Source of the DNA: Bowmanella denitrificans
Lineage (GTDB): Bacteria > Pseudomonadota > Gammaproteobacteria > Enterobacterales > Alteromonadaceae
Length of the DNA stretch: 64,000 nucleotides
Direction of reading: 5' to 3'
Assembly (NCBI RefSeq): GCF_002887595.1
Contig: NZ_PEBU01000012.1
Span: 62,001-126,000, forward strand
Every line of letters starts with the position of its first letter. Positions within the stretch are counted from its first letter, which is position 1. The notes under the pieces are model-generated. The model searched no databases, was not told where the DNA came from, and was given only the letters and a program-made list of their open reading frames with translations. The position numbers were made by a program, and so were the translations under genes. Shown piece after piece: positions 2,708 through 60,313 of the stretch.

Positions 2708-3453
2708 TTAAAATTGATAGCTGATGGTGGCGTTGCCGCCGGCATAATTGTTATCGTCAGCCGACACCCGGCCATAACCGGCTTCCAGGCGGAACCGCCA
2801 GCCTGACTGGTTTAAACCATTGACGCTGTAGCTGTATGACAGAGCGGCCCCCTGAATTGAGTGTTCATCGAAGATGCTGCCGATTGCACAGGCCAGACCA
2901 CTTAAACCGTCATCTTTATCGCAATCATCTATGTCCCGCACACCCACCGCGCCGGCCAGCAGGCCGATACTGTGCTGCTGGTTTGGGTCCAGCGCATATT
3001 CAAAGCCTACCGAGAAGCCATCGTCCAGCCCTAAGTTGTACTTGGCGTACCATCGTTGATTATCGGTGTTTGACCAGGATACTTCCGGTACAACGAAATA
3101 GGGGTATCCCGCACCCAATGAAAAGTTCACATCGTTGGCAAAGGCAGTAGGGGCTGTTTATCTTTCGAGTATGATTTTGCAGCAGTTTGTGGGCCCTTTA
3201 TACAAGGCAGCGCGAACGTGGTGTAGTGATTCTACATGAGTGAGTAATAACGCCGTAGAAAGGGCCCACAAGCGCTGCCCGAAGGGTTCAACCCAGCCCC
3301 TCCTGCTCGGTGTTGCCGGGCTTTGACTTAGGCCCACTAGGCCAGCAGCCCGGCGTCGTGATCAGAAGGGGCTGGATTTGAACAAAATCTATACTTGAAA
3401 GATAAACAGCCCCTAGCAAAGCACAGACTAAGTAAAATCAGTCCTTTTTTCAT
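2708..3453 (-). pseudogene. Beta-barrel outer membrane protein gene interrupted by a MITE
   Basis: The body (2708-3130) encodes 140 residues rich in alternating hydrophobic and aromatic positions and ends in SYQF, typical of an outer membrane barrel strand with terminal phenylalanine. The start (ATG 3453) gives MKKGLILLSLCFA and then runs into the element at 3150-3413, reaching a TAG after about 38 codons. Removing the element plus one TA restores one frame with the signal peptide MKKGLILLSLCFATAFA followed by NDVNFS, about 159 residues in all. The family is not recognised beyond a small barrel. As it stands the protein cannot be exported. Confidence 0.8.
3150..3413. mobile_element. 264-bp MITE with TA target duplication
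   Basis: The ends are inverted repeats: 17 bp are perfect (GGGGCTGTTTATCTTTC at 3150-3166 and its complement at 3397-3413), and similarity continues to about 30 bp with one mismatch and one indel. The element is flanked by TA at 3148-3149 and 3414-3415, the target duplication expected of IS630/Tc1-mariner type transposition. Inside are further hairpins: TGTGGGCCCTTT near 3189 pairs with its complement near 3260, and an imperfect stem covers about 3295-3376. It has no coding capacity for a transposase, so movement would need one supplied elsewhere. Confidence 0.85.
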
Positions 3454-3631
3454 GGTGTTATATCCTTAGTGTTGATTTGGCAGGATAGTAAACAGCAAGA
3501 AAGACATTTGATAGGTGGGCATGTGGTTATTTTGTAAAACTTTGCAAAAAACAATCCGTCCCTGAGTCCTGCATTGAACCTTAAAGACGGGCTGGTATAG
3601 TAACGGCCTTTTTGCTGTTTCGAATCTTGTT

Positions 3632-4405
3632 ATGCTGATTGTATTGTCCCCCGCCAAAAATCTCGATTATGACACTCAGGCCCATATCCAGGCCTATAGC
3701 CAACCTATGATGCTGGACCAGGCTGAAGCCCTTATTCAGGTCTGCCGGGATCTGTCGCCAGCCCAGGTTGGTAGTTTGATGCATATCAGTGACAAGCTTG
3801 CGCATCTGAATGTTGAGCGCTATCACAACTGGTCCCTGCCATTTAACCAGCATAATGCTAAGCAGGCCGTGCTGGCCTTTAATGGCGACGTGTACACCGG
3901 CCTTGAAGCCGCCAACCTGAGCGAAGCTGACCTGAACTATGCCCAGCAGCATTTGCGCATTCTGTCCGGGCTGTATGGTTTGCTCAGGCCTTTGGATTTG
4001 ATGCAGCCTTACCGCCTGGAGATGGGCACCAAGCTGGCAAACCCAAGGGGCAAAGATCTTTATCAATTCTGGGGTGAACGTATTACCAGCGGATTAAATC
4101 AGGCGTTAAGTGAACAGGGGGATAATGTTCTGGTGAACCTGGCCTCGAATGAGTACTTCAAGGCAGTTAAGCCTAAAACACTGGATGGAATGATTGTTAC
4201 CCCGACTTTTAAAGATAAGAAAAACGGCCAATACAAGGTCATCAGCTTCTTCGCCAAGAAAGCCAGAGGCATGATGGCACGCTTCATTCTGACCAACAGG
4301 TTGACGGAACTGGAACAGCTAAAAGACTTTGACCTGGGGGGCTACCGTTTTGACTCATCTCAATCCTCCCCGCGGGAACTCACCTTTATTCGTGATGAAC
4401 AATAG
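3632..4405 (+). CDS. yaaA: Peroxide stress protein YaaA (DUF328)
   Basis: The 257 residues match the YaaA family along their whole length, from [10 protein letters not shown] near the N-terminus to RYDSS-like residues (GYRFDSSQS) near the end. Known family members limit iron-driven oxidative damage during peroxide stress and bind DNA; the biochemical mechanism is not fully settled. The gene is single, with the interrupted barrel-protein gene on the other side. The ATG at 3632 has a poor ribosome binding site, but the N-terminal motif fits this start. Confidence 0.93.
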
Positions 4406-4519
4406 ATCGGATCGCTGACTTTCTCTGTATAAAAGCTGGCAACAACTTTAATACAGTTCTTAACACTTCTGTCTTGATTGGGTTGCTAAGATTCAGGCTT
4501 GAAAAAACAGGAGAACAGA

Positions 4520-5257
4520 ATGCAACTACGGACGATTTGTTTATGTGTGGCACTGGCTGCGGCCGGACATGCCCAGGCAGAAGGCAAGTGGGGGCTGGGC
4601 CTGGGGGCTATTACTGCTACTTCCCCCTATTTGGGGGAATCCCGGGATTTTCTGGTGGTCCCCCTGGTAAGTTATGAAGGGGAAGACTTTCATTTTAGCG
4701 GTGTATCCGCCACCTATGATTTGTATGAAAATGAGACGCTGGCACTGAAGGCCTATATCAGCCCCGGCTTTGATTTTTTTGATCCGGATGATGCTGACTG
4801 GCAGAGCATGAAAAGCCTCAAGGAACGTAAATTTTCTGTAATGGCTGGCTTTGAGCTTGAAGCCGATTTGGGCTTTGCCACCAGTACCTTGTCTGCAGGC
4901 CATGATGTTACCGGCAATGCCAGTGGCTACAGCCTGAGCTGGGGAATTAGCCAACATTATGCACTGGCAAAAGGTTTAATGCTGATCCCCGAAATCGGTG
5001 TGGTGTATGCTGATGCCAAGGTGGTGGATTATTATTACGGAGTGGATAGCGGGGAAAGCCCGTATTTTGGTGCTTATGAAGCCGACTCTGCACTAAATCC
5101 TTACGCCTCGTTAACGCTGATGTATCAGATTGATAAAAACTGGCAAGTGTTCAGCAATCTGGAATATACAAAGTACGATAGCGAAATTAAAGACTCGCCC
5201 ATCGTGGGACGAGACGGCGATTTGCAATTCCTGGCGGCGTTTAGTTATACCTTCTGA
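4520..5257 (+). CDS. MipA/OmpV family outer membrane protein
   Basis: A 245-residue exported barrel. The ATG at 4520 is chosen over an in-frame TTG at 4499 because ACAGGAG lies just upstream and because it gives a clean signal peptide (MQLRTICLCVALAAAGHAQA, cleavage before EGKWG). The mature part begins with the family's GLGAITATSPYLG pattern and ends in SYTF, a typical barrel C-terminus. MipA proteins are linked to murein enzymes and OmpV proteins to small-molecule uptake; which applies here is not decidable. A strong hairpin follows the stop. Confidence 0.88.
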   Translation: MQLRTICLCVALAAAGHAQAEGKWGLGLGAITATSPYLGESRDFLVVPLVSYEGEDFHFSGVSATYDLYENETLALKAYISPGFDFFDPDDADWQSMKSLKERKFSVMAGFELEADLGFATSTLSAGHDVTGNASGYSLSWGISQHYALAKGLMLIPEIGVVYADAKVVDYYYGVDSGESPYFGAYEADSALNPYASLTLMYQIDKNWQVFSNLEYTKYDSEIKDSPIVGRDGDLQFLAAFSYTF

Positions 5258-58591: not shown

Positions 58592-60313
58592 ATGCTGAAT
58601 ATTCGTTACCGACAAGCCGAATCCTGGCTGGAGCAAGAGGCTCCACTGCATCCGCGTTTAAAACAAATCTATGCCGGTCGTGGTATCCGCCAGATGGCGC
58701 AATTACAGCACAGCACCAAAGCTTTGCTGCATTACCAACAGCTGAACGGCATTGAACAGGCAGTGTCTGTACTGGCCCGTGCCTTGCAGCAAGCCAGAAA
58801 GCTGGTCATTATCGGCGATTTTGATGCCGATGGTGCTACCAGTACCGCCCTGTGTATGCTGGCCCTTAAACAAATGGGTGCGACGCAGGTTGAGTACCTG
58901 GTGCCGAATCGTTTCGATTTTGGTTATGGCCTGAGTCCGCAGATTGTTGATATGGCCCATCAGCAGGGGGCAGAATTGCTGATTACGGTGGACAATGGTA
59001 TCGCCTGCCTGGCGGGGGCCAGACGCGCCCGCGAGTTGGGTATGCAATTGCTGATCACCGACCACCATCTGCCGGGCAGTGAGTTGCCCCCGGCAGATGC
59101 CATAGTGAATCCCAATCTGACCAGATGCGATTTTCCGTCGAAAAACCTGGCCGGGGTGGGGGTGGCATTTTATCTGATGCTGGCTTTGTGTCGTTATTTG
59201 CAAAACACTGGCTGGTTTGCGCAAGCTGCAATACCTGTGCCTAATCTGGCCGACTTGCTGGATTTGGTGGCCCTTGGCACTGTGGCCGATGTGGTCCGAT
59301 TGGACCAAAACAACCGTATCTTAGTGCATCAGGGGCTGCAGCGAATTCGCAGCGGCCGCTGTCGACCTGGTATTCGCGCTATGGTGGAAGTGGCCGGACG
59401 GGAATGCGGACAAATTGCTGCATCTGATCTGGGGTTTGTACTGGGCCCCAGATTAAATGCCGCCGGCAGACTGGATGATATGGCGATGGGCATCGAATGC
59501 CTGTTAGCAGAGGAAGAAGGCAAGGCCAGACGTATGGCGGTGGAGCTGGATAGCCTTAACCGCGAGCGCCGGGAAATCGAAAGCAGTATGCAGGCCGAAG
59601 CCCTAAAAACCCTCGAGTTGCTAAGCTTTAACGAGCAGCAACTGCCGTCCGGATTGGTGTTATATCAGGCTGATTGGCACCAGGGAGTAATAGGTATACT
59701 TGCCGGGCGGATCAAAGACCGCTATTTCCGCCCCACCATCGCCTTTGCCCATCAGGATGACGAGGTGCTAAAAGGCTCTGCTCGTTCTATCCCTGGCCTG
59801 CATATTCGTGATTTACTGGAAGAGATCAACAGCCGCTATCCGGGCATTATTGAAAAGTTTGGCGGTCATGCCATGGCGGCCGGCCTGTCGCTTAAAGCCG
59901 AAAAGTTACCGGCTTTTGAACAGGTATTTCAACAGGTGGCGGACGAATGGTTGCAAGGCAAATCCCTGCAGGGAGAACTGTGGTCAGATGGTCAGTTGGA
60001 CGGCAGTGAACTGAATCTGGACTTCGCGCAGTTGTTGAAAGAATCTGGTCCCTGGGGCCAGGGCTTTGAAGAGCCATTATTTGACGGTGAATTTGAACTG
60101 CTGGACCAGCGACTGGTAGGTGATAAACATCTGAAAATGATGGTAAAGCAAGGCTCCGGGCCGTTGTTGGACGCCATTGCATTTAATGTTGATTTGGCGG
60201 TATGGCCAAACCGGCAAATCAAGCAGGTGCAGCTTGCCTATCGGCTGGATATTAATCATTTCCGCGGCAAAGTCTCCCTGCAGCTTATGGTAGAGGCATT
60301 AGCAGCATTATGA
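58592..60313 (+). CDS. recJ: Single-strand-specific exonuclease RecJ
   Basis: 5' to 3' exonuclease acting in recombination and mismatch repair. 573 residues; DHH-family motifs are DFDADG (76-81), TVDNGI and TDHH (156-159), with the DHHA1 motif GGHAMAAGLS in the C-terminal half. No Shine-Dalgarno precedes the ATG because the hairpin occupies that place. The next gene overlaps it by 4 bp. Confidence 0.95.
   Translation: MLNIRYRQAESWLEQEAPLHPRLKQIYAGRGIRQMAQLQHSTKALLHYQQLNGIEQAVSVLARALQQARKLVIIGDFDADGATSTALCMLALKQMGATQVEYLVPNRFDFGYGLSPQIVDMAHQQGAELLITVDNGIACLAGARRARELGMQLLITDHHLPGSELPPADAIVNPNLTRCDFPSKNLAGVGVAFYLMLALCRYLQNTGWFAQAAIPVPNLADLLDLVALGTVADVVRLDQNNRILVHQGLQRIRSGRCRPGIRAMVEVAGRECGQIAASDLGFVLGPRLNAAGRLDDMAMGIECLLAEEEGKARRMAVELDSLNRERREIESSMQAEALKTLELLSFNEQQLPSGLVLYQADWHQGVIGILAGRIKDRYFRPTIAFAHQDDEVLKGSARSIPGLHIRDLLEEINSRYPGIIEKFGGHAMAAGLSLKAEKLPAFEQVFQQVADEWLQGKSLQGELWSDGQLDGSELNLDFAQLLKESGPWGQGFEEPLFDGEFELLDQRLVGDKHLKMMVKQGSGPLLDAIAFNVDLAVWPNRQIKQVQLAYRLDINHFRGKVSLQLMVEALAAL

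Follow-up and report, generated by a model that had tools for sequence, protein, structure and literature searches.

A multicopy TA-flanked MITE that splits a gene of Bowmanella denitrificans, and its probable order-wide family with IS5-type ends

In Bowmanella denitrificans, a gene for an apparent barrel protein is cut, 38 nucleotides from its start, by a short insert flanked on both sides by TA, which raises the question of what this insert is, what kind of transposase moved it and why it folds so strongly. From the 64,000-nucleotide stretch of DNA that contains it (hereinafter, the window), its copies and its relatives, we conclude with considerable confidence that it is a multicopy, TA-duplicating MITE of an order-wide family of two-module elements with IS5-type ends, which would have been moved in trans by IS5.

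A MITE inside a split gene

The barrel-protein gene is split by the insertion of a MITE. Joined over a single TA, the flanks read MKKGLILLSLCFATAFANDVNFSLGAGYPYFVV, with the frame uninterrupted; with the insert present, the frame that starts at the ATG at 3453 stops after 38 residues. An earlier note on this DNA had proposed that deletion of the element and one TA restores a continuous frame, and translation of the joined flanks confirms that they share one reading frame. The note further took the insertion to be recent, a claim that stands only weakly: on both flanks the reading frame has stayed intact, but the window element differs by 3-5% from its nearest copies in the same genome. The features of the locus are as follows.

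2708-3147, minus strand: remainder of the split barrel gene (listed frame 2708-3130; homologues in 8 other genomes of the family)
3148-3149: left copy of the target TA (from the sequence and the single-TA empty sites of two sister-species copies)
3148-3172, plus strand: left terminal inverted repeat, TA included, 25 nt, 96% complementary
3150-3413: MITE of 264 bp with type (a) ends, GGGGCTGTTTATCTTTC (from the sequence, the copies and the fold)
3180-3277, plus strand: arm A, a hairpin module whose internal loops, CAAGGCAGAG / GATAACGC in the family consensus, are conserved
3278-3286, plus strand: hairpin CCC-GAA-GGG of three pairs at the three-way junction (family consensus)
3287-3382, minus strand: arm B, the inverted second module (homologous to arm A by model matches in relatives, not in this copy)
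3391-3415, minus strand: right terminal inverted repeat, TA included, 25 nt, 96% match to the left repeat
3414-3415: right copy of the target TA (same basis as the left copy)
3416-3453, minus strand: first 38 nt of the split barrel gene, the start of the signal peptide, with the ATG at 3453 (translation of the joined flanks)

The designation of the protein as a barrel is that of the earlier note and reflects how the sequence looks; Pfam gave no match for the frame at E 0.001. Homologues were detected in 9 of 118 genomes of the family, including the own genome, and a homologue is absent in this search from the sister species G002, G003 and G004. The other eight homologues are 30-50% identical, and seven have no internal stop, the eighth having one TAG; in the closest (L063, 50%), a signal-peptide-like start, as judged by eye, directly precedes the same mature start. 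The split gene lies between a frame that by eye resembles transaldolase (1149-2102) and yaaA (3632-4405), which is adjoined by a gene for a MipA-family protein (4499-5257).

The first 17 bases inside the TA of the two ends match perfectly, as originally described, and the sole listed frame that lies wholly within the element encodes 59 amino acids (the listing minimum being 50), in agreement with the reported lack of a transposase frame. The internal hairpins noted previously are likewise evident: the folding energy of the window element is -152.1 kcal/mol, compared with a mean of -85.2 for shuffled sequences (z -12.6; 0 of 200 shuffles as good), and two arms are seen in the family consensus. 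The end pattern, with up to three mismatches allowed, occurs three times in the 64-kb window against 0.27 expected, and two of these occurrences are the ends of the element itself. A lone end-like sequence with two mismatches is located at 59820-59838 on the minus strand. A search of Rfam yielded no match that reached the gathering score in the region 2900-3700 or in the loci of seven relatives, and three weak matches below it.

The search of the whole genome for a second copy that had been suggested in the note turned up many, so the outcome by which the note would have been refuted, a lone copy, did not arise. The window element matches 61 places by BLAST in its own genome, a 5.48-Mb draft in 39 contigs, and at least 15 copies with two ends are present among the 30 loci kept, along with fragments. 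Including the TAs, ten of the 15 two-ended copies are 268-270 bp long, two 338, one 405, one 200 and one 150 bp; ten of the 15, and all nine sister-species copies that were inspected, are flanked by TA on both sides. Two kinds of ends, GGGGCTGTTTATCTTTC and GAGCGTGTTGACCTTTT, surround a common interior. Within the genus, a match at the DNA level exists in three of the five genomes, the own one included; the fourth (G001) contains a diverged relative whose ends differ and which the arm model scores at 68.7 bits, and the fifth (G003) has no element by either the DNA search or the end-pattern search. Among named genomes, an exact 28-base core of the element was found only in Bowmanella pacifica CGMCC 1.7086, in three places. 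The own genome also contains solo units of ~47 nt (L026-L030, L057-L061), GGGGCTG...CAGCCCC and variants thereof, which match the end of the element and stop near an internal CAGCCCC, a few of them with TA on both sides; possibly, these are minimal derivatives.

The TA target duplication, another claim of the note, was assessed by comparing the flanks of three sister-species copies (L032, L033 and L036) with other species of the genus. Clean empty sites with a single TA were found for L032 of G004 in G002 (L097, 85%) and for L033 of G002 in G004 (L109, 76%), so the duplication is borne out for two sister-species copies. In three further comparisons, two of L033 (68% each) and one of L036 (71%), the junction has diverged and no TA is seen; the own-genome L032 site, which aligned in two separate pieces only, was left out. 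Being short, free of a transposase gene, bounded by terminal inverted repeats, accompanied by a TA duplication and dispersed in copies, the 264-bp element is what the note called it, a TA-flanked MITE, and because it is multicopy and two sister-species empty sites show a single TA, we consider it a true one.

Folded modules and their spread across the order

To derive a consensus structure, we aligned 25 hand-picked elements out of those fetched, leaving out near-duplicates, diverged elements of the G001 type, L088_269 and all whose length was far from 268 bp. The consensus comprises a terminal helix, two arms and a small junction hairpin that form a three-way junction, with 96 pairs, 52 of which show double-sided (compensated) changes. 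In this alignment, 94.5% of the cells are paired compared with 81.3% in shuffles, and the covariation score is 0.392 compared with 0.154 (0 of 500 shuffles as high), a control that related rows inflate; the number of further pair types, 109, is not unusual against 105.9 in shuffles (119 of 500 as high). When partners were slid by 1-3 columns, only 36-42% of the cells paired (at most 42.1%), although this control favours the consensus, which was derived from the same alignment.

From 24 sequences of arm A we built a covariance model and searched the order with it at E 0.001, with 394 genomes sampled and with E-values that are rough owing to a short calibration. In 13 of the 28 loci analysed, out of the best 30 from this search, the model matches the neighbouring arm on the opposite strand with 33-63 bits. 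When read backwards, the hairpin still gives 27-32 bits in six loci (up to 31.5), and the weakest arm B matches (L194 with 33.3 and L181 with 35.1 bits) are doubtful because they are barely above that level. In the window, the model matches arm A (3176-3280) with 112.8 bits and the reverse reading of arm A with 24.9 bits, and nothing else. Each of the shorter elements L139 (193 bp) and L085 (182 bp) contains one module match. As judged from these matches, one module of ~105 nt is present as an inverted pair in the standard element and once in the shorter elements.

The model was positive in 138 of the 394 genomes, in 41 of 115 genera and, by family codes, in 17 families. The own genome supplies one of the best 30 loci. 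Of the 30, 19 measure 266-268 bp from end to end with both TAs counted, three have good ends at 282-288 bp and eight have no clear end pair. Twelve plasmid records, those of large plasmids from Pseudoalteromonas, Vibrio and Catenovulum, also match. By contrast with plasmids, carriage by phages is unsupported, given 0 matches in 50,697 phage records, and viral contigs scanned with the YaaA protein yielded no confirmed case. We found no description of the element family in the open-licence literature. The bacterial MITEs treated in the reviews consulted are mostly confined to one genus or family, and a single lineage in which both the length and a covarying three-way fold are maintained over dozens of genera would be unusual.

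The constant length might have a simpler cause, namely that the element is an ordinary neutral repeat and that one copy has recently spread horizontally, with no constraint involved. The presence of the element in large plasmid records makes movement between lineages plausible. Nevertheless, the window element is only 68-70% identical to full-length Pseudoalteromonas copies, and the mean column identity in the alignment (A1) is 79%, with compensated changes; for these reasons, the family does not appear to reflect a recent spread of one copy, and we regard the neutral-repeat explanation as unlikely. A more serious competitor, although one against which we lean, holds that the fold is kept only as DNA, through homogenisation by template switching or a need of the transposase, and has no RNA role. 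Such a scenario fits the exceptions counted over the whole element in pairs that are predicted for both strands, which are balanced, 29 G-U and 29 A-C, with no strand bias, and it is also in accord with the terminal helix, which pairs by construction since the transposase must recognise both ends; furthermore, template-switching correction of palindromes could be an alternative source of the double changes. Against it, each arm read in its own direction leans to G-U, with 28 G-U and 6 A-C in arm A (binomial p 0.0002) and 27 and 10, respectively, in arm B (binomial p 0.008), where the p-values treat related rows as independent and the split by arm is post hoc, having been made after the wobble test of the whole element gave no bias. 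These counts come from 44 of 57 arm A sequences, those at least 95% alike having been dropped, and 44 of 54 arm B sequences, several of which (e.g., L165, L185, L186) are plainly out of alignment or do not represent arm B. In alignment A1 alone, the counts are 6 G-U and 4 A-C for arm A and 21 and 6 for arm B in its own direction. Moreover, the unpaired columns of arm A, with a mean entropy of 0.66 compared with 0.77 for the paired ones, are no less conserved. The G-U excess by arm thus leans, with moderate weight, to a constraint at the RNA level.

Under such an RNA-level constraint, the arms would keep their fold for the sake of the RNA that is read from them, conceivably for transcript stability or for tolerance between genes, which is the less certain part of the proposed mechanism; the presence of the module in both directions would then provide one correctly oriented arm whichever way the element lands. 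A broader version, which we put forward only tentatively and consider rather doubtful, is that the MITE is, across the order, the vehicle of a structured RNA module on IS5 ends, any insertion giving one correctly folded arm, and that some long copies serve as CsrA-type sites. CsrA sites have GGA in hairpin loops, with the consensus RUACARGGAUGU. The longer variants of the element (L011, L012, L015, L039, L041, L089, L134 and L140, as well as L088 and L138) contain extra hairpins near the arm tip, and the first eight have a cassette of 67-70 nt or similar, with two hairpins joined by AACAGC-loop-GCTGGCC; a loose regular expression for this cassette gave mostly chance matches, so only those inside elements were used. 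Among the 16 distinct perfect hairpins of the ten long elements, whose cassettes are related and not independent, 13 have GGA at the loop on either strand, compared with 40 of 226 in flanking DNA, and such hairpins belong to the longer variants, not to the window copy. Some are close to the CsrA consensus, and a subset of the copies may thus be mobile sites that bind, or sponge up, a global RNA-binding regulator.

IS5-like ends and the putative mover

The end pattern is present in 93 of 246 genomes of the family, and the stretches around such ends have two recurrent sizes, 881-888 bp and ~267-269 bp, along with some others. The larger are insertion sequences with similar ends; the copies fetched were six from G110, two from G025 and one each from G105, G208 and Pseudoalteromonas sp. 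HL-AS2 (882 bp, on NZ_CP133572.1), and in these five other genomes they carry TA flanks. The G110 element encodes a protein of 257 aa with DUF4096 and DDE_Tnp_1 domains that scores 258 bits on NF033580, the NCBI model of IS5-family transposases (cut-off 110 bits). The transposases of G025, G105 and HL-AS2, each of 253 aa, reach 250-260 bits; in the G208 copy, the frame is shortened to 197 aa (190 bits). Compared with six such copies from the five genomes, the window ends are identical in 14-18 of 19 bases, that is, not perfectly, and the second kind of ends in 14-17 of 19; MITE and insertion sequence ends of one and the same genome agree in 16-18 of 19 bases (three genomes). A 268-bp relative is located ~1 kb from the 882-bp insertion sequence on the HL-AS2 record. 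The TA flanks are also similar in the two types of elements, as is, by eye, the subterminal sequence, but the IS5 element has a transposase gene where the MITE has two folded modules.

An autonomous partner with matching ends was found in other genera only. The G110 transposase had no match in the five genomes of the own genus, in a search run without a positive control; DUF4096 was found in 0 of these five by a search that was positive in 5 of 14 control genomes, although in the own genome a collapsed repeat could be missed because the assembly is a draft. Six local loci with DDE_Tnp_1 were considered as movers and rejected, their best end likeness being 12-13 of 19 compared with 12-14 for shuffles (five shuffles each).

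The earlier note had named an IS630/Tc1-mariner transposase as the likely mover. TA duplication is typical of IS630, and an IS630 transposase inserting at TA would accordingly account for the target sites. A precedent exists as well in RUP of Streptococcus pneumoniae, likewise a MITE with a TA target and ends that match an autonomous insertion sequence, which is 107 bp long and has IS630-Spn1 as its partner, the partner here being an IS5-family element (PMC2229807). Yet it is IS5-family elements, in five other genomes, that have ends like these, and the IS630 partner sought in the own genome did not materialise: PF13358 (the DDE_3 type) has no match there by a search that was positive in 3 of 14 control genomes. 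Hence the IS630 attribution is very improbable, whereas the idea that the element moves in trans survives as an inference from the IS5-like ends. The mover was probably an IS5-family transposase of the DUF4096 + DDE_Tnp_1 type, which would have recognised the common ends, mobilised the elements in trans and inserted them at TA. Given that no DUF4096-type IS5 transposase was found in the own genus, the copies there look stranded, or may be awaiting the re-entry of an IS5. With an aligned structure supported by covariation and a candidate transposase at hand, both the mover and the RNA role of the arms become testable.

Known repeats and the effects of insertion

Long forms are familiar from ERIC sequences, in which they have inserts of ~70 bp, and ERIC shares with the present element the terminal TA, the terminal repeats and the folding as well. 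ERIC, IRU and RU-1 of enterobacteria are described as mostly intergenic repeats with terminal TA, terminal repeats and stable folded transcripts (PMC2229807, PMC10969869). ERIC is given there as 127 bp, whereas the element described here consists of a pair of inverted modules and has an IS5 partner whose ends are similar; ERIC occurs in E. coli, but the 268-bp query had no match in 5,426 E. coli genomes at E 1e-5, so a sequence relationship is not apparent. The Correia or NEMIS elements of Neisseria have a terminal TA, 24-bp terminal repeats and short and long forms, ~107 and 155 bp as opposed to 264 bp here, and their folded transcripts have been proposed as targets of RNase III (PMC2229807); the likeness is one of description. 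The same applies to the CIR repeats of Caulobacter and Brucella, which likewise have two arms from two long inverted repeats and are kept between genera, but for which no 5'-3' terminal stem is described (PMC2229807). Any MITEs among the mobile elements of Shewanella oneidensis MR-1 (Romine et al. 2008), a related host group, could belong to the same family.

A preference of the elements for terminator hairpins was considered and rejected: the mean energies were -10.91 kcal/mol for 24 joined sites and -10.87 for 1101 nearby TA sites. Copies L002, L010, L013 and L033 are in or beside terminator-like hairpins, with no overall preference.

As for genes, nine open frames of at least 100 codons enter one of 26 elements analysed, and seven of the nine do so in the frame that the TAG of the element itself closes (one-sided binomial p 0.008 with one third expected). 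Among these seven, the frame of L001 (left) runs antisense over the barrel gene. GAT-TAA in the empty allele of the L032 site has become GAT-TAG in the filled one, so that, by landing on the stop codon, the element leaves the protein whole. Thus, the element can end a gene cleanly in this manner or break it, as it does the barrel gene. In Pseudoalteromonas sp. HL-AS2 (L164, NZ_CP133572.1), an annotated oxidoreductase gene stops on the TAG of the element, and so do the long frames of L032 and L036.
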